From: Wenyingzhuangia fucanilytica
GTDB taxonomy: Bacteria > Bacteroidota > Bacteroidia > Flavobacteriales > Flavobacteriaceae
Assembly (NCBI RefSeq): GCF_001697185.1
Contig: NZ_CP014224.1
Location: 2,232,001-2,296,000 of the forward strand
Length of the DNA: 64,000 nt
Direction of reading: 5' to 3'
Under the pieces are notes generated by a model. It searched no databases and had not been told where the DNA came from. It saw only the letters and a program-made list of their open reading frames with translations. Within the stretch, counting starts at the first letter, position 1, and every line of letters starts with the position of its first letter. Position numbers and translations under genes: made by a program. Positions 10,811 to 36,463 of this stretch are shown here, piece after piece.

Positions 10811-13800
10811 ATGGAAGAAAAAACTTATCAAAAATGGAACATCATCACTGGATGGGTTGTATTTGCAATTTCACTAATCACATACACACTTACTCTTGAA
10901 CCTACTGTTAGCTTTTGGGATTGTGGAGAATATATTTCAACAGCTGTAAAACTAGAAGTAGGTCACCCACCAGGTGCTCCTTTATTCCAAATGCTTGGTG
11001 CCTTTTTTGCCATGTTTAGTTTTTCTGCTAGTAATGTAGCTTATATGGTTAACTTTATGTCTGGTCTAGCAAGTGCTTTTACCATATTGTTTATGTTTTG
11101 GTCCTTAACCAACCTAATTAAAAGAATTGCTATAAAAAACAATGTATTAGACCTAAACAAAACTATTGCTATTATTGGTAGTGCTGCAGTAGGTAGTTTA
11201 ACTTATACTTTTTCTGATAGTTTTTGGTTTAGTGCTGTAGAGGCCGAAGTATATGCTATGTCTTCTTTTTTAATGGCCTTACTTTTCTGGTTAGGACTAA
11301 AATGGGAAAAATCTTTTGGACAACCTAGAAACAATAGATGGTTAATTTTAATATCTCTTATTATAGGTCTTTCTTTTGGAGTACACATTTTATCTTTATT
11401 AGTAATTCCATCATTAGTATTCCTATACCTAAATTATTATTACGAAAAATACACTGTAAAAACTTTTATCATTGCCAATGCTATTGCAATAGGAACCTTA
11501 GCTTTTATTTTTAAGTTTTTATTCCCTTATACCTTATTATTCTTTAGTGCTTCTGAATTGTTCTTTATCAACAATCTAGGATTGCCATTTAATACAGGAA
11601 CTATTATCGCTGGTATTGTTATTATTATTGGTTTCTACTTTGGATTAAAACACACTCGTAAAAACAATATGTATTTAGGAAACACAGCTTTATTATCTAT
11701 CATGTTTGTTATGATTGGTTTTTCTTGCTGGTTAATGCTTCCTATTAGAGCTAACGCCAATACCATTATTAACGAAAACAACCCTTCATCTGCTAGAGAA
11801 CTTTTAGCTTACTACAATCGTGAACAATATGGTGATGCTAATATTTTTTACGATACCTATTATTCTGAAAAATACAATAGAGAACCTGCAACAGATGCCA
11901 ATGGTGAAACCATCATGGAAGATGTAAAACCTAAGTACGAAAAAGACGAGAAAAGCGGGAAATACATTATTGTTAACGACTACAAAAACGCACAACAAAA
12001 AACCGGAGATCAACACAAAGGTTTTATTCCTAGAATGGTTGTTCCAGGTCTAGAGCAAAACTATAAAATGATTGCAGGTATTCCTAAAAACAGTAAAGAG
12101 AGACCAACCATGGCTCAAAACCTAAAATACATGGCCGAGTATCAATTTGGATACATGTACTTTAGATATTTGTTTTGGAATTTTGTTGGAAAACAAAACG
12201 ACATTCAAGGAAACATGGATCCTTTAAACGGAAATTGGATCACTGGAATTAATGCCATAGATAGATTTTTTATAGGTCCGCAAACAAATCTTCCTAGCGA
12301 TGTTATTAACAACAAAGGGAGAAATATTTATTTTGGTATTCCTTTTATACTAGGGATTATCGGACTAATATATCAATACAGCAAAGACAAAAGAAACTTT
12401 TACAACCTATTATTATTCTTTGCTTTTACAGGTTTTGCCATCATTTTTTACACCAACCCAAAACCTTTTGAACCAAGAGAAAGAGATTATGCCGTTGTAG
12501 GATCTTTTTACATTTTTGCCATGTGGGTAGGATTTGGTGTTTATGCTATTATTGATAAAATAAACGAATACAAAAATAACAAACTGGTTGCCATCTCTGT
12601 AACTTCAATCTGTTTGCTAATCTCACCTGTTTTGATGGCTTCAGAAAACTGGGATGACCATGATAGATCTAACAGATATACAGCTTATTTTAATGCAAAA
12701 GCTTATTTAGATTCTTGTGATGAAAATGCTATTTTATTTACCATTGGAGATAACGATACTTTCCCACTTTGGTACTTACAAGAAGTAGAAAAATACAGAA
12801 CTGATATTAAAATCATCAACTCTAGTTTACTAGCTACTGATTGGTATATTGATCAAATGAAGCGTAAAGCTTATGAGTCTGACCCTATCCCATCACAATT
12901 AACACACAAGCAATACAGACACGGTAGTTTAGACGTAGCTTATCATATCGATCAAGTTGACGACCGTTGGAATATTGACGACTTTATGATGTGGATTAGC
13001 TCATCTGACAAGAGAACTTATATTGAAGTTACTGATGGAAAGTTTGAGAAATTCTACCCAACAAACAAATTAAGATTAACCGTTAACAAAGAAACTGTTT
13101 TAGCTAATGGTACTGTTAAAGCAAAAGATGCTGATAGTATTGTTGACTATATGGATATGGATGTTGATGATAGAGGACTTACAAAAAACAGAATTTTAAT
13201 GTTAGATATTCTAGCCAACAACAACTGGAAACATCCTATTTATTTTACAGGAGGAGCCAATGCTGACGAAGAATATATTTGGTTAAAAGATTATTTACAA
13301 CTAGATGGTATGGCTTATAAATTAGTCCCTATAAAAACCAAAAATGAATATGGTATTTTAGGAATGGGAAGAATTGATAGTGATGACTTATACGAAAAAG
13401 TAAAAGACTGGAATTTTGGACATCATGGAAAAGATTTTTATTTAGATGTAGAATCTAGAAAAAATTCAATTTCTTATAGAAACACTATTTCTAGACTAGT
13501 TGAAGCTCTAATTAACGAAGGAAAGTTTGATAAAGCTGAAGAAATACTAGATTTAAGCTTTAACAAGATGCCTATTGAAGAATACCAACAATACGGAGTA
13601 TGCCTAGGTTTTCCTGAACAATATTATCTTATTAACAAACCAGAAAAAGCTCGTATTGCTGCAGATTTATTGATCAAAACTTTTCAAGAACATTTAACTT
13701 ATTACAGTCAGTTTAACTCATATGACTTAAACTACTTATTCTCAGAAGTTGAAAACCAATTCAAAATGTATCAAACTGTAGCTGCGGATGTTAATAAATA

Positions 13801-13882
13801 CGACAAAGACACTGACTATAAAGACATGGTTGAAAAATCATTCTTAGAACACATCAAATTGTTCGAAGAAATTTTCCAATAA
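10811..13882 (+). CDS. DUF2723 membrane protein, GT-C-type glycosyltransferase-like
   Basis: A 1023-residue inner-membrane protein of the DUF2723 family, related to protein O-mannosyltransferases. The first TM helix is followed by SFWDCGEYISTAVKLEVGHPPG (split here: SFWDCGEY near 35, then VGHPPGAP near 52), where the acidic residues resemble the first-loop catalytic site of GT-C enzymes. About 11-12 hydrophobic helices fill residues 10-620, followed by a large C-terminal soluble domain with GDNDTFPLWYLQ and a helical tail. Bacteroidota O-glycosylate secreted proteins, and this family is a candidate transferase, but neither donor nor acceptor can be read from sequence. The polysaccharide deacetylase gene follows 4 nt downstream. 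Confidence 0.85.
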   Translation: MEEKTYQKWNIITGWVVFAISLITYTLTLEPTVSFWDCGEYISTAVKLEVGHPPGAPLFQMLGAFFAMFSFSASNVAYMVNFMSGLASAFTILFMFWSLTNLIKRIAIKNNVLDLNKTIAIIGSAAVGSLTYTFSDSFWFSAVEAEVYAMSSFLMALLFWLGLKWEKSFGQPRNNRWLILISLIIGLSFGVHILSLLVIPSLVFLYLNYYYEKYTVKTFIIANAIAIGTLAFIFKFLFPYTLLFFSASELFFINNLGLPFNTGTIIAGIVIIIGFYFGLKHTRKNNMYLGNTALLSIMFVMIGFSCWLMLPIRANANTIINENNPSSARELLAYYNREQYGDANIFYDTYYSEKYNREPATDANGETIMEDVKPKYEKDEKSGKYIIVNDYKNAQQKTGDQHKGFIPRMVVPGLEQNYKMIAGIPKNSKERPTMAQNLKYMAEYQFGYMYFRYLFWNFVGKQNDIQGNMDPLNGNWITGINAIDRFFIGPQTNLPSDVINNKGRNIYFGIPFILGIIGLIYQYSKDKRNFYNLLLFFAFTGFAIIFYTNPKPFEPRERDYAVVGSFYIFAMWVGFGVYAIIDKINEYKNNKLVAISVTSICLLISPVLMASENWDDHDRSNRYTAYFNAKAYLDSCDENAILFTIGDNDTFPLWYLQEVEKYRTDIKIINSSLLATDWYIDQMKRKAYESDPIPSQLTHKQYRHGSLDVAYHIDQVDDRWNIDDFMMWISSSDKRTYIEVTDGKFEKFYPTNKLRLTVNKETVLANGTVKAKDADSIVDYMDMDVDDRGLTKNRILMLDILANNNWKHPIYFTGGANADEEYIWLKDYLQLDGMAYKLVPIKTKNEYGILGMGRIDSDDLYEKVKDWNFGHHGKDFYLDVESRKNSISYRNTISRLVEALINEGKFDKAEEILDLSFNKMPIEEYQQYGVCLGFPEQYYLINKPEKARIAADLLIKTFQEHLTYYSQFNSYDLNYLFSEVENQFKMYQTVAADVNKYDKDTDYKDMVEKSFLEHIKLFEEIFQ

Positions 13883-15050: not shown

Positions 15051-17852
15051 ATGGCCACACAAAAAAGATTGTTTTTACTAGATGCTTTTGCTTTGATTTT
15101 TAGAGGGTATTACGCTTTGATAAAAAACCCAAGGATTAACTCTAAAGGAATGGACACTTCTGCTATTCTAGGATTTACAAATTCTTTATTAGATGTCATC
15201 AAAAGAGAACAACCAGAATTATTAGCTGTTGCTTTTGATAAAGGTGGATCTGTAACAAGAACCGAATCTTTTGAAGCTTATAAGGCCAACAGACAAGAAA
15301 CTCCAGAAGCTATTAAAATAGCAATTCCATATATTCATGAAATTTTGAAAGCCATGAATATTCCTATTATTGAAGTTGAAGGGTTTGAAGCTGATGATTT
15401 AATTGGAACTTTAGCCAAACAAGCAGAAAAACAAGGGTGCCAAGTATACATGGTTACTCCTGATAAGGATTACGCCCAGCTAGTATCTGAAAACATTTTT
15501 ATGTACAGACCTGCTAGAATGGGGAACGGAATTGAAATTTGGGATATAGAAAAAGTAAAAGAAAAATTTGAGGTAGAAAGCCCCCTACAAGTTATTGATT
15601 ACTTAGGGATGATGGGAGATGCTGTTGACAACATACCGGGTTTACCTGGTGTAGGTGACAAAACTGCCAAAAAATTTATAAAACAATACGGATCTATGGA
15701 AAACCTTTTAGCCAATACTCATGAGCTAAAAGGAAAAATGAAAGAAAAAATTGAAGCCAACAAAGAGTTAGGATTACTATCTAAAGAATTGGCTACTATT
15801 ATATTGGATTGTCCTGTAGAGTATCACGAGGAAGATTTTACCATGTGCGCGCCTAATATTGAAGAAACTTCGAAGATTTTTCAAGAATTAGAATTTAGAC
15901 GTATTGCCGATACTGTTAACAAAATTTTTGGAACAGAAACACCACAAACAACTACAGAAAAACAAGAAACCCCACAAACAAACAGCAACGAACCTCAATT
16001 AGATTTGTTTGGAAGTGCCGAGGCATCGCAAAACACAACTTCTTCTTTTGGATACAATACAATTAGCAATACAAAGCCCATTTATCAATATTTAAACACT
16101 GATATTGCTAGAAAACTATTTATTAGCAAACTTTTAAATCAACCAAAAGTTGCTTTTGAAATTGTGACCGAAAGAGAAAATTTTATCGATCAAATTATTG
16201 GGTTTAGTTTTTCATACGAAGCCAACACAGGGTATTATATTCCTGTAACAGAAAATACTGATAAAATCCTTACAGAATTAAAAGCTTTTTTTGAAAACGA
16301 GGCTATTGAAAAAATTGCTTATGATGTTAAAAGTAATATCAAGTTTTTAGCACAATACAATATTTCTCTACAAGGAAAAATTTTCGACATTAGTTTAGCT
16401 CATTATTTATTACATCCAGACATGAGACATCAACTTGATGTATTGTCTGAAACTTACTTAAAATACGAAGTTACTCATCAAGACAACGTAATTGGAAAAG
16501 GTAGAAATAAAATAAAATTAGCCGAGGTAGATTTAGCTATCACCACTCCATATTCTTGCGAACAATCTGATGTTTGTTTTCAACTAGAAAGTCTTTTTAG
16601 AAAAGAATTATCAGAAAATAATTTAGAAAAATTATATGATGAAATTGAATTGCCATTATTAAAAGTATTGGCTAAAATGGAATTGGCAGGAATCAACCTT
16701 GATGTTCCATATTTAAAAGAATTATCAGATGTCTTAACTACAGATATTGCTGTTTTAGAAAAAGAAATCTACTCATTAGCTGGCGAAGAATTTAATATTG
16801 CCTCTCCTAAACAATTGGGAATAGTTTTATTTGAAAATTTAAAACTAGTGGATAAGGCTAAAAAAACCAAAACCGGACAATACGCAACTGGTGAAGATAT
16901 TTTAAGCAAATTGGCATCGGAACATGAAATTGCTGCCAAAATATTAGAATATCGTGGATTGGTAAAACTAAAAAACACTTATGTAGATGCTTTACCAAAC
17001 GAAGTAAACCCAGTAACTAACAGAGTTCACACCACCTACAGCCAAGCAACTGCAGCTACAGGAAGATTGAGTTCTAACAATCCAAACCTACAAAACATTC
17101 CTATCAGAACAGAAAGAGGAAAACAAATTCGTAAAGCATTTGTTAAAAGGAATGATGATTATGTTTTGTTTGCTGCCGATTACTCTCAAATAGAATTAAG
17201 ATTAATTGCAGAATTAAGTCAAGATCCAGAAATGTTAGCTTCTTTTCAAAAAGGAGATGATATTCACCGCTCAACAGCTGCCAAGGTTTTTGGCGTTTCA
17301 ATTGATGAAGTTACAAGAGAGCAACGTAGTCACGCTAAAACAGTAAACTTTGGAATTATTTATGGAGTTTCTGCTTTTGGTTTAAGCCAACAAACCAATT
17401 TAAGCAGAAAAGAATCAAAAGAATTGATTGATACTTATTACGAAACTTATCCTACGCTTAAAAAATACATGGCAAGTCAGGTAGATTTTGCCAAAGAAAA
17501 TGGATATGTAAAAACTTTGTTAGATAGACGTAGATACCTAAAAAACATCAACTCTGCCAACGCTATTGTTCGTTCTGCCGATGAAAGAAATGCTGTAAAC
17601 GCTCCTATTCAAGGAACTGCTGCAGACATTATTAAAATCGCCATGATTAACATCCAAAAAACACTAGAACAAGGAAAGTACAAAACCCAAATGCTTTTAC
17701 AAGTTCATGATGAATTGGTGTTTGATATGCACAAAGATGAAGTTGACACCTTAAAACCTTTAATTGTTTCTCTAATGGAAAACGCATACAAACTTAGCGT
17801 TCCTTTAGTAGTTGATACTGATATGGGTGACAATTGGTTAGATGCACATTAA
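15051..17852 (+). CDS. polA: DNA polymerase I, proofreading site apparently inactive
   Basis: A 933-residue family A polymerase for Okazaki fragment maturation and repair. The 5' nuclease domain (1-290) begins DAFALIFRGYYAL and includes EADDLIGTLA. A Gln/Thr-rich linker (290-330) leads to a 3'-5' exonuclease-fold domain (330-520), then the polymerase domain with motif A DYSQIELR, the O-helix RSHAKTVNFGIIYG and motif C QVHDELVF, all intact. In the exonuclease fold the E. coli metal ligands D355, E357, D424 and D501 correspond to E370, V372, N429 and Q505, so proofreading should be lost. This alignment was made by eye. The gene is preceded by a 170-nt gap with no recognised promoter. Identification as PolA is certain. 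Confidence 0.97.
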   Translation: MATQKRLFLLDAFALIFRGYYALIKNPRINSKGMDTSAILGFTNSLLDVIKREQPELLAVAFDKGGSVTRTESFEAYKANRQETPEAIKIAIPYIHEILKAMNIPIIEVEGFEADDLIGTLAKQAEKQGCQVYMVTPDKDYAQLVSENIFMYRPARMGNGIEIWDIEKVKEKFEVESPLQVIDYLGMMGDAVDNIPGLPGVGDKTAKKFIKQYGSMENLLANTHELKGKMKEKIEANKELGLLSKELATIILDCPVEYHEEDFTMCAPNIEETSKIFQELEFRRIADTVNKIFGTETPQTTTEKQETPQTNSNEPQLDLFGSAEASQNTTSSFGYNTISNTKPIYQYLNTDIARKLFISKLLNQPKVAFEIVTERENFIDQIIGFSFSYEANTGYYIPVTENTDKILTELKAFFENEAIEKIAYDVKSNIKFLAQYNISLQGKIFDISLAHYLLHPDMRHQLDVLSETYLKYEVTHQDNVIGKGRNKIKLAEVDLAITTPYSCEQSDVCFQLESLFRKELSENNLEKLYDEIELPLLKVLAKMELAGINLDVPYLKELSDVLTTDIAVLEKEIYSLAGEEFNIASPKQLGIVLFENLKLVDKAKKTKTGQYATGEDILSKLASEHEIAAKILEYRGLVKLKNTYVDALPNEVNPVTNRVHTTYSQATAATGRLSSNNPNLQNIPIRTERGKQIRKAFVKRNDDYVLFAADYSQIELRLIAELSQDPEMLASFQKGDDIHRSTAAKVFGVSIDEVTREQRSHAKTVNFGIIYGVSAFGLSQQTNLSRKESKELIDTYYETYPTLKKYMASQVDFAKENGYVKTLLDRRRYLKNINSANAIVRSADERNAVNAPIQGTAADIIKIAMINIQKTLEQGKYKTQMLLQVHDELVFDMHKDEVDTLKPLIVSLMENAYKLSVPLVVDTDMGDNWLDAH

Positions 17853-34501: not shown

Positions 34502-35190
34502 TGCAATACACCTATTTACTCATCAATATCGCATGTATCTCAATTCCTTTTATCGCTAGTTTTTACAAAAAACACGCATTTTACAAAGAGTGGAAATACT
34601 TTTTTTTGAGTTGTATGCTGGTGGGAACTTTCTTTTTAATTTGGGACGAAATATTTACTCAATTAGATTTTTGGGGCTTTAACCCTACTTACTTAACAGG
34701 AATTTATTTAGGTCATTTACCTCTAGAAGAAATTTTGTTTTTTGTTTGTATTCCTTACGCTTGTTCCTTTACTTATTTTGCCTTTCTGTATTTAATTCCC
34801 AATAAAAAAAACAATCAAAAACTGATTAAATTCAACTATATTTTAGCTTTGTTTTTGTTAGGCTTAGGCATTTTAAACTACCACAAATGGTACACTTTTT
34901 TAACCTTTTTGTTTTTAGGTATTTTCTTACTTTATCTAAAAAAATTAAAAGTTAATTTGTTTTATTACTACCTAACTTTTGCCACCATTCTTCCGTTCTT
35001 TTTTATGAGTAACGGAATATTAACTGGTAGTTTTTTAGAAGCTCCTATTGTTTGGTACAACAATACTCAAAATTTGGGCATAAGAATGTTTACCATTCCT
35101 GTGGAAGATACTTTTTACGGAATGTTATTAATTTTTGGAAACATATACTTTCATCAATATTTTAAACAAAAAGCAAATGCAAAAAGTTAA
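34501..35190 (+). CDS. Lycopene cyclase (CrtYcd-type, membrane)
   Basis: A 229-residue protein with about seven TM helices, built from two similar lycopene cyclase domains. GHLPLEEILFF (near residue 75) and IPVEDTFYGMLLIF (near 200) are the paired signature motifs P-x-E-E/D of the heterodimeric/fused CrtYcd type, distinct from the FAD-type CrtY. It makes beta-carotene from lycopene, completing crtI-crtB-cyclase-crtZ for zeaxanthin. It overlaps the photolyase gene by 14 nt. Confidence 0.9.
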   Translation: MQYTYLLINIACISIPFIASFYKKHAFYKEWKYFFLSCMLVGTFFLIWDEIFTQLDFWGFNPTYLTGIYLGHLPLEEILFFVCIPYACSFTYFAFLYLIPNKKNNQKLIKFNYILALFLLGLGILNYHKWYTFLTFLFLGIFLLYLKKLKVNLFYYYLTFATILPFFFMSNGILTGSFLEAPIVWYNNTQNLGIRMFTIPVEDTFYGMLLIFGNIYFHQYFKQKANAKS

Positions 35191-36463
35191 TGTATTTTGG
35201 TTTAGAAGAGATTTACGTTTGTTTGATAATACAGCTCTAAACAAAGCTTTAGCAGAGAACATCCCTGTACTTCCTATTTTTATTTTTGATGATGAAATTT
35301 TAGAATTTTTACCAAAGAATGATGCTAGGGTATCTTTTATTTATGACTGTTTAAATAACATCAATCAAGAACTAAATCAACATAAAAGTAGTTTATTGGT
35401 TTTAAAAGGAACACCTACAGAAGTATGGAAACAACTTTTTAAAAATTACAACATCAATGCTATTTACACCAATAAAGATTATGAACCTTATGCTTTAGAA
35501 CGAGATAGAAATATTTACAAATTGGCTAAGGAACATCAAATTGAATTTTATAGGTTTAAAGATCAAGTCATTTTTGAAGAAAATGAAATTATAAAAGCCG
35601 ATGGAAAACCATACACTGTTTATACTCCTTATAAAAACAAATGGTTAACTGTTTTTAAAGAAAGAACTCTTACAACGCAAACAGGTAATGATCAAAACTT
35701 TTTAAAACAAAAAACATCATTTCCCAAAATTGAAGAGATAGGATTTACAGCTTCTTTAATAAAAGTACCTAAGTTTGACGCTACAAAAATTATAGATTAC
35801 GGAAAACATAGAGATTTCCCTTCTATTGATCACACCACACATATTGGTCCTCATTTACGTTTTGGTACTTTAAGTATCAGGCAAGTCATTTTAAATTTAC
35901 CAAAGCAAAGCGATGTCTATTTAAGTGAATTAATTTGGAGAGAGTTTTTTATGCAAATTCTCTTTCATTTTCCGCAAGCACAGCACCACAATTTTAAATC
36001 TAAATACGATACCATTCCTTGGAGAAATAACGAAGAGGAATTTAACAAATGGTGTAACGGACAAACAGGATACCCTATAGTAGATGCAGGTATGAGAGAG
36101 TTAAATGCCACGGGACATATGCACAACAGAGTAAGAATGATTACGGCAGGATTTTTATGCAAACACTTACTGATTGATTGGCAATGGGGTGAAGCGTATT
36201 TTGCCGAAAAATTATTAGATTATGAACTAGCTGCCAACAACGGAAATTGGCAATGGGCTGCAGGAACAGGTTGTGATGCTGCTCCTTATTTTAGAGTTTT
36301 TAACCCGACCACTCAAATTCAAAAGTTTGACAAAGACCTAAAATATATTAAAAAATGGGTGCCCGAATTAAATGAATTAAGTTATCCAGAACCAATGGTG
36401 GAACATAAATTTGCCAGAGAAAGAGCTATTAACACCTATAAACTAGCTTTAGAAAGCCACTAA
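35177..36463 (+). CDS. Deoxyribodipyrimidine photolyase (class I cryptochrome/photolyase)
   Basis: A 428-residue light-driven DNA repair enzyme. NVFWFRRDLRLFDN opens the antenna-chromophore domain, and the C-terminal FAD domain has LSELIWREFFMQIL, TGYPIVDAGMREL, MHNRVRM and NNGNWQWAAGTGCDAAPYFR, typical of class I CPD photolyases. I start at the ATG at 35177, which begins MQKVNVFWFRRDLR; an in-frame ATG at 35135 would add 14 residues with no family match. The start lies inside the cyclase gene, so expression is coupled with the carotenoid genes and the operon looks like a light-protection unit. Confidence 0.93.
   Translation: MQKVNVFWFRRDLRLFDNTALNKALAENIPVLPIFIFDDEILEFLPKNDARVSFIYDCLNNINQELNQHKSSLLVLKGTPTEVWKQLFKNYNINAIYTNKDYEPYALERDRNIYKLAKEHQIEFYRFKDQVIFEENEIIKADGKPYTVYTPYKNKWLTVFKERTLTTQTGNDQNFLKQKTSFPKIEEIGFTASLIKVPKFDATKIIDYGKHRDFPSIDHTTHIGPHLRFGTLSIRQVILNLPKQSDVYLSELIWREFFMQILFHFPQAQHHNFKSKYDTIPWRNNEEEFNKWCNGQTGYPIVDAGMRELNATGHMHNRVRMITAGFLCKHLLIDWQWGEAYFAEKLLDYELAANNGNWQWAAGTGCDAAPYFRVFNPTTQIQKFDKDLKYIKKWVPELNELSYPEPMVEHKFARERAINTYKLALESH

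Follow-up and report, generated by a model that had tools for sequence, protein, structure and literature searches.

The polA locus and its proofreading ligands

The polA gene of the marine flavobacterium Wenyingzhuangia fucanilytica raises the question of whether a DNA polymerase I in which all four proofreading ligands are changed can still proofread and, if it cannot, why the exonuclease domain is still there. The gene lies in the window (the whole stretch of 64,000 nucleotides that was analysed) of a genome of 3,427,057 bases in one contig, and the named relatives of its product, at 86-93% identity, are those of Wenyingzhuangia species. The gene, its domains and the three exonuclease motifs have the following window coordinates:

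15051-17852, + strand: polA, DNA polymerase I, 933 aa, full length (open reading frame, NCBIfam, Pfam)
15066-15857, + strand: 5'-3' nuclease domain, residues 6-269 (Pfam PF02739 and PF01367; alignment)
16086-16610, + strand: vestigial 3'-5' exonuclease domain, residues 346-520 (PF01612, E 1.1e-14; PF22619, E 8.5e-16)
16158-16166, + strand: Exo I, E370-I371-V372 replacing E. coli D355-T-E357 (alignments)
16323-16337, + strand: Exo II, D425-V-K427-S-N429 replacing N420-L-K422-Y-D424 (alignments, model)
16551-16565, + strand: Exo III, Y501-S-C-E504-Q505 replacing Y497-A-A-E500-D501 (alignments)
16710-17840, + strand: family A polymerase domain, residues 554-930 (PF00476, E 3.8e-160; alignment)

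The protein scores above the cut-off of two NCBIfam models (NF004397, 1097.6 bits; TIGR00593, 982.8 bits), and its 5'-nuclease, 3'-5' exonuclease-fold and family A polymerase domains are all on one chain (PF02739, PF01367, PF01612, PF22619, PF00476). All 20 of the catalytic positions that we checked by alignment in the polymerase (R672, D710, E715, R759, K763, F767, Y771, Q854, H886, D887, E888) and the 5' nuclease (D11, D63, E113, D115, D116, D138, D140, D190, D193) are as in E. coli; the polymerase motifs are thus intact, as had been proposed. The surroundings of the gene are mostly housekeeping (ribosomal proteins L13, S9 and S2; EF-Ts, RRF, IF-2, NusA). Three genes upstream of polA, at 10811-13882, is a membrane-type protein of 1023 aa that matches the TMEM260-like protein O-mannosyl-transferase family (PF11028), and a DNA photolyase gene lies about 17 kb downstream (35135-36463).

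The exonuclease active site is a different matter. The E. coli ligands D355, E357, D424 and D501 correspond to E370, V372, N429 and Q505 of the window protein, both by phmmer against solved Klenow chains and in two MAFFT alignments containing E. coli MG1655 PolA, all of which agree. All four DEDD positions of the DEDDy active-site set are therefore changed, and only its tyrosine (Y497) is retained, as Y501. The original prediction, whose quoted segments check out and fall within 16143-16573, had all four ligands replaced; three alignments uphold the four changes, but D355 to Glu is conservative, so that the carboxylate is lost at three sites and kept at one. In the available text of PMC9629493, Asp355, Asp424 and Asp501 are described as holding the metals and as crucial, while Leu361, Phe473 and Tyr497 are proposed to place the substrate. 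Around these positions, E. coli L361, Q419, N420, Y423 and F473 are replaced by E376, Y424, D425, S428 and Q477, the last being weak evidence for a change in the pocket since 255 of 256 Flavobacteriaceae PolA with an intact site have Ile rather than Phe at position 473. Judged by these residues, the damage is not limited to the four ligands but extends to the pocket that binds the 3' end. It is centred on the exonuclease domain, because the window protein keeps only 42 of the 67 near-invariant columns there (those with more than 97% identity in the 256 intact PolA), as against 172/175 in the polymerase and 95/97 in the 5' nuclease.

The same state, E-(V/I)-N-Q, is found throughout the genus comparison, in the PolA of six Wenyingzhuangia species (the window, L031-L034 and L040) and in Ochrovirga pacifica (L035 and L112, which denote one locus). 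With three alignments in agreement and six species and a sister genus sharing the state, it is practically inconceivable that misalignment or a sequencing error created it. Nothing in favour of such an error was found for the window protein; the Exo I alignments do conflict for two other proteins (L120 and L122).

Predicted fold and proposed mechanism

The AlphaFold model of the window protein, built from 41 aligned proteins, has a mean pLDDT of 85.6, and the ten-residue means in the exonuclease region range from 71 to 96, mostly near 90. Foldseek aligned it to the Klenow structure 1kfs with a TMt of 0.92 and an rmsd of 2.4, figures that cover the whole Klenow part and not the exonuclease domain alone. 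Pfam (PF22619, PF01612), the predicted model and Foldseek all give an RNase H-like fold, which is predicted to have been retained in the exonuclease domain. Foldseek also matched the model to the solved structures of Taq and Bst (Bacillus stearothermophilus) Pol I, which come from different phyla, a likeness at the level of structure. Both of these polymerases have an inactive exonuclease domain.

The reading that we prefer, with a probability of about 0.9, is that of an ordinary Pol I whose 3'-5' proofreading exonuclease is dead and whose exonuclease domain is kept as a folded scaffold. The protein has DEDDy substitutions in an otherwise canonical Pol I, the sequence pattern by which exonuclease-inactive PolA1 is recognised. 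On the residues involved, a loss of proofreading appears well supported, and with it a loss of exonuclease activity may be inferred. The two catalytic metals would not be held, the sites of E357, D424 and D501 having no carboxylate, D355 being lengthened to Glu and the pocket for the 3' end being changed; very weak leftover binding is conceivable, because E370 retains a carboxylate and D425 adds an acid close by. The dead domain would remain next to the polymerase as a folded scaffold. Gap filling and RNA primer removal would probably proceed as usual, because the polymerase and 5'-nuclease active-site residues checked are intact. A mispaired 3' end would not be trimmed, and mismatches and some lesions would be extended more readily; on the precedent of H. 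pylori Pol I, a raised error rate of repair synthesis is plausible.

Distribution in Flavobacteriaceae and beyond

The family sample comprised 299 genomes, 296 of them with a PolA match; 293 loci were taken and 290 scored. Those left out were G168 and G312 (small fragments only) and G267 (by oversight), and those unscored for a missing motif were L270, L275 and L296, although L270 entered the tree and the genome-size comparison among the degenerate PolA. DEDD is complete in 256 of the 290 PolA, which bears out the original statement that many flavobacterial PolA proteins keep the ligands, and it is degenerate in the other 34. Among these, one ligand is changed in 1, two in 7, three in 16 and four in 10; in L120 and L122, counted as degenerate, one alignment reads Exo I as V-E and the other as gap-V, so that all four are lost in 8-10 of the 34. 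Many different residues occupy the four sites, and this scatter fits a loss of function. Some degenerate Flavobacteriaceae PolA are shortened to about 875-921 aa. Seven of them (L263, L266, L270, L283, L284, L286 and L287), of about 875-918 aa as extracted, have some motif columns that are hard to make out; perhaps they represent a later stage of the same decay.

Outside the family the comparison covered the same class only. DEDD is changed in 4 of 63 hand-picked PolA from other families, a non-random set assembled as 7+14+24+1+17, the last 17 being mostly lower-scoring matches. These four (L443, YANR; L449, AQD-; L450, EATH; L160, EEDD) imply that losses have occurred elsewhere in the class too. 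Two Flavobacteriales MAGs (L091 and L096) that belong neither to the family sample nor to the 63 have Q-I-A-R at the ligand positions and D at that of N420. Second, shorter family A polymerase matches were seen in two genomes that also have a normal PolA (G175:C1:1312364-1313638 and G545:C61:100902-102593, with frames of 438 aa and 608 aa), and these are possibly phage-type polymerases.

Phylogeny of the losses

Because most PolA of the family and most of those from other families of the class keep DEDD, it is likely to be the ancestral state. On a FastTree phylogeny of 304 PolA, computed from 732 columns outside the exonuclease domain after the partial sequences L274, L275, L293 and L296 had been dropped, the number of DEDD losses is 17 by Fitch parsimony and again 17 when losses are counted as irreversible. 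This number is an estimate, since some nodes are weak (the one that unites the window clade with its six intact sisters has a support of 0.63) and several of the degenerate genomes are incomplete. The window clade, with a support of 0.977, is one of the 17 and consists of Wenyingzhuangia, Ochrovirga (L112), Flavicella (L007 and its genus mate L114) and one MAG (L022). D424 is kept in both Flavicella proteins and lost in Wenyingzhuangia, so the ligands probably went one after another. Lutimonas saemankumensis (L042), a close relative, has the full DEDD set. The suggestion that the loss is lineage-specific therefore stands, but with 17 losses in the family sample it is not confined to the genus.

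Divergence and constraint

With respect to amino-acid divergence, the exonuclease/polymerase ratio has a median of 1.98 in 27 degenerate pairs versus 1.16 in 6934 intact pairs (the pairs share species, and no p-value is given), and it ranges from 1.15 to 2.31 for Wenyingzhuangia/Ochrovirga, of which 19 pairs fall inside the distance limit. When pairs are matched for polymerase distance, the ratio is 2.04 in degenerate and 1.16 in intact pairs at 0.10-0.16, and 1.60 and 1.29, respectively, at 0.06-0.10; at 0.02-0.06 there is no speed-up, the single degenerate pair giving 1.46 against a median of 1.54 for 34 intact pairs. For independent intact pairs (43 computable of 88 drawn) dN(exo)/dN(pol) has a median of 1.13 and a range of 0.37-3.61, and single values consequently overlap with those of degenerate pairs. 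In Wenyingzhuangia/Ochrovirga the NG86 estimate of dN/dS is 0.032-0.104 (median 0.07; 17 of 21 pairs computable) for the dead domain and 0.034-0.087 (median 0.071; 21 pairs) for the polymerase domain, and the median in intact pairs is 0.042 for both domains; all these values are rough, because dS is about 1 or above and synonymous sites are near saturation. The dead exonuclease domain looks relaxed yet still constrained.

An alternative is that relaxed selection is the whole story, Pol I proofreading mattering so little that it drifts off and the domain is disappearing. We regard this as a tentative possibility: the exonuclease domain diverges about twice as much as the polymerase domain in degenerate pairs, and the shortened proteins would fit it. 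Nevertheless, the domain of the window clade is full length, with dN/dS near 0.03-0.10, and K427 (E. coli K422) is Lys in 34/34 degenerate as well as 256/256 intact family PolA, so that drift is partial at most. This invariance also points to a structural role for the lysine.

A new acid at position 420

The residue at E. coli N420 is Asn in 255 of the 256 intact family PolA, the remaining one being unreadable, but among the 34 degenerate proteins 16 have D here, 4 have E, 13 have N and 1 has H. An acid occupies the position in 17 of the 20 PolA without D424 and in only 3 of the 14 degenerate PolA with D424, and in the window clade the position reads DDDDDDE. By one parsimony reconstruction, Asn gave way to Asp five times and to Glu once, and Asp reverted to Asn four times. 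We infer that the active site imposes Asn here and that an acid is favoured once catalysis has been lost. In the AlphaFold model D425 immediately precedes helix 426-434, and a helix-cap role would therefore be the simple reading.

These acids raise the question of whether E370, D425 and others could make up another metal site that has some activity. The novelty of D425, its acidic character across the clade and the frequency of D/E at position 420 where D424 is missing all speak for such a relocated or altered site. V372, N429 and Q505, however, lack a carboxylate, W. heitensis has Gln in place of E374, pocket residues are changed too, and the predicted place of D425 just before a helix offers it a plain structural reason. 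Of the acids common to the exonuclease domains of the seven Wenyingzhuangia/Ochrovirga proteins, D425 and E513 alone fall in columns seldom acidic in intact PolA, while D380, E409 and D478 fall in mixed ones; no substitute set of carboxylates was seen, and the original prediction does not founder on intact D/E ligands elsewhere in the domain. We therefore consider a displaced active site highly improbable. It is also distinctly unlikely, in our view, that the dead domain has gained a conserved pseudo-exonuclease role, in which the acidic residue at 420 would cap the Exo II helix, bar the primer end and lock Pol I as a mismatch and lesion extender.

Fidelity genes and genome size

We surveyed fidelity genes in 66 hand-chosen genomes, 32 with degenerate and 34 with intact PolA. 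RNase_T (DnaQ-like) domains are present in all 66, and so are MutS_V domains, which are strong matches in 64 and of a weak type only (best E about 1e-31 to 1e-33) in the intact G137 and G297. Y-family polymerases occur in 64/66, being absent from the degenerate G073 and the intact G202. The six Wenyingzhuangia genomes each have MutS, RNase_T/DnaQ-like proteins and two to three Y-family polymerases, as do most intact relatives, which indicates that there has been no broad loss of fidelity genes in the genus. In the window genome three of the four RNase_T proteins were examined, and by eye their DEDDh motifs are intact. Compensation or a general mutator state was considered, and no compensating gene stood out among the 66 genomes.

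These data bear on the possibility that the loss itself was selected, an extender or translesion Pol I being useful, as has been discussed for H. pylori and B. subtilis. Seventeen parsimony losses in one family sample and a constraint that persists after the loss would be in keeping with adaptive inactivation, and the available text of PMC12926913 discusses an extender/translesion role. On the other hand, each of the six Wenyingzhuangia genomes searched already has two to three Y-family polymerases, leaving no evident gap for such an enzyme, and the scattered residues after the loss suit relaxation. On balance we think adaptive inactivation unlikely.

Estimated genome size is below 2.5 Mb in 18 of 35 genomes with degenerate PolA versus 30 of 256 intact ones, and in 6/19 versus 14/211 of the genomes that are at least 95% complete. 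Genome streamlining was nonetheless rejected as a cause, for the effect is gone in comparisons with sister clades (smaller in 9/17, Wilcoxon p 0.58). This agrees with PMC12926913, in whose available text DEDDy substitution in PolA1 is unrelated to genome size.

Comparison with known systems and significance

Wenyingzhuangia is an aerobic genus, unlike the anaerobes in which inactive PolA1 is enriched. That enrichment is described in the accessible part of PMC12926913, according to which about half of bacterial PolA1 carry DEDDy substitutions and the inactivation is largely phylum-specific. The proteins concerned resemble ours in being orthologues of E. coli Pol I with DEDDy substitutions, but the losses in Flavobacteriaceae are scattered within a single family that mostly keeps the motif, in contrast to that phylum-wise pattern.

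The closest biochemical parallel is with H. pylori Pol I (HP1470), which, as described in the portion of PMC3121766 available, lacks the equivalents of Asp355, Asp424 and Asp501 and has no exonuclease activity on 3' mismatches, carries out mismatch extension and translesion synthesis, and combines an active 5' nuclease and polymerase with an exonuclease structure that is likely preserved. There are two differences: the loss of activity was shown by biochemistry in H. pylori, while the Wenyingzhuangia protein is known from its sequence; and Wenyingzhuangia possesses both MutS and Y-family polymerases, while H. pylori has neither translesion polymerases nor mismatch repair (PMC3121766 for H. pylori).

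Loss of the exonuclease motifs of Pol I has thus already been described across bacteria (PMC12926913, in its available text), and the single Wenyingzhuangia case is by itself ordinary. Among the published matches listed, taken by their titles and abstract openings and with the supplements of PMC12926913 outside the scope, none dealt with PolA proofreading in Flavobacteriaceae. Repeated loss within a family whose members mostly keep proofreading, together with lasting constraint on the dead domain, may be less fully documented. This one family allows relatives whose Pol I proofreads to be set against relatives whose Pol I does not, the 17 losses on the tree used serving as replicates, a useful natural experiment on the share of Pol I proofreading in the mutation rate and on the reasons for retaining a dead domain.
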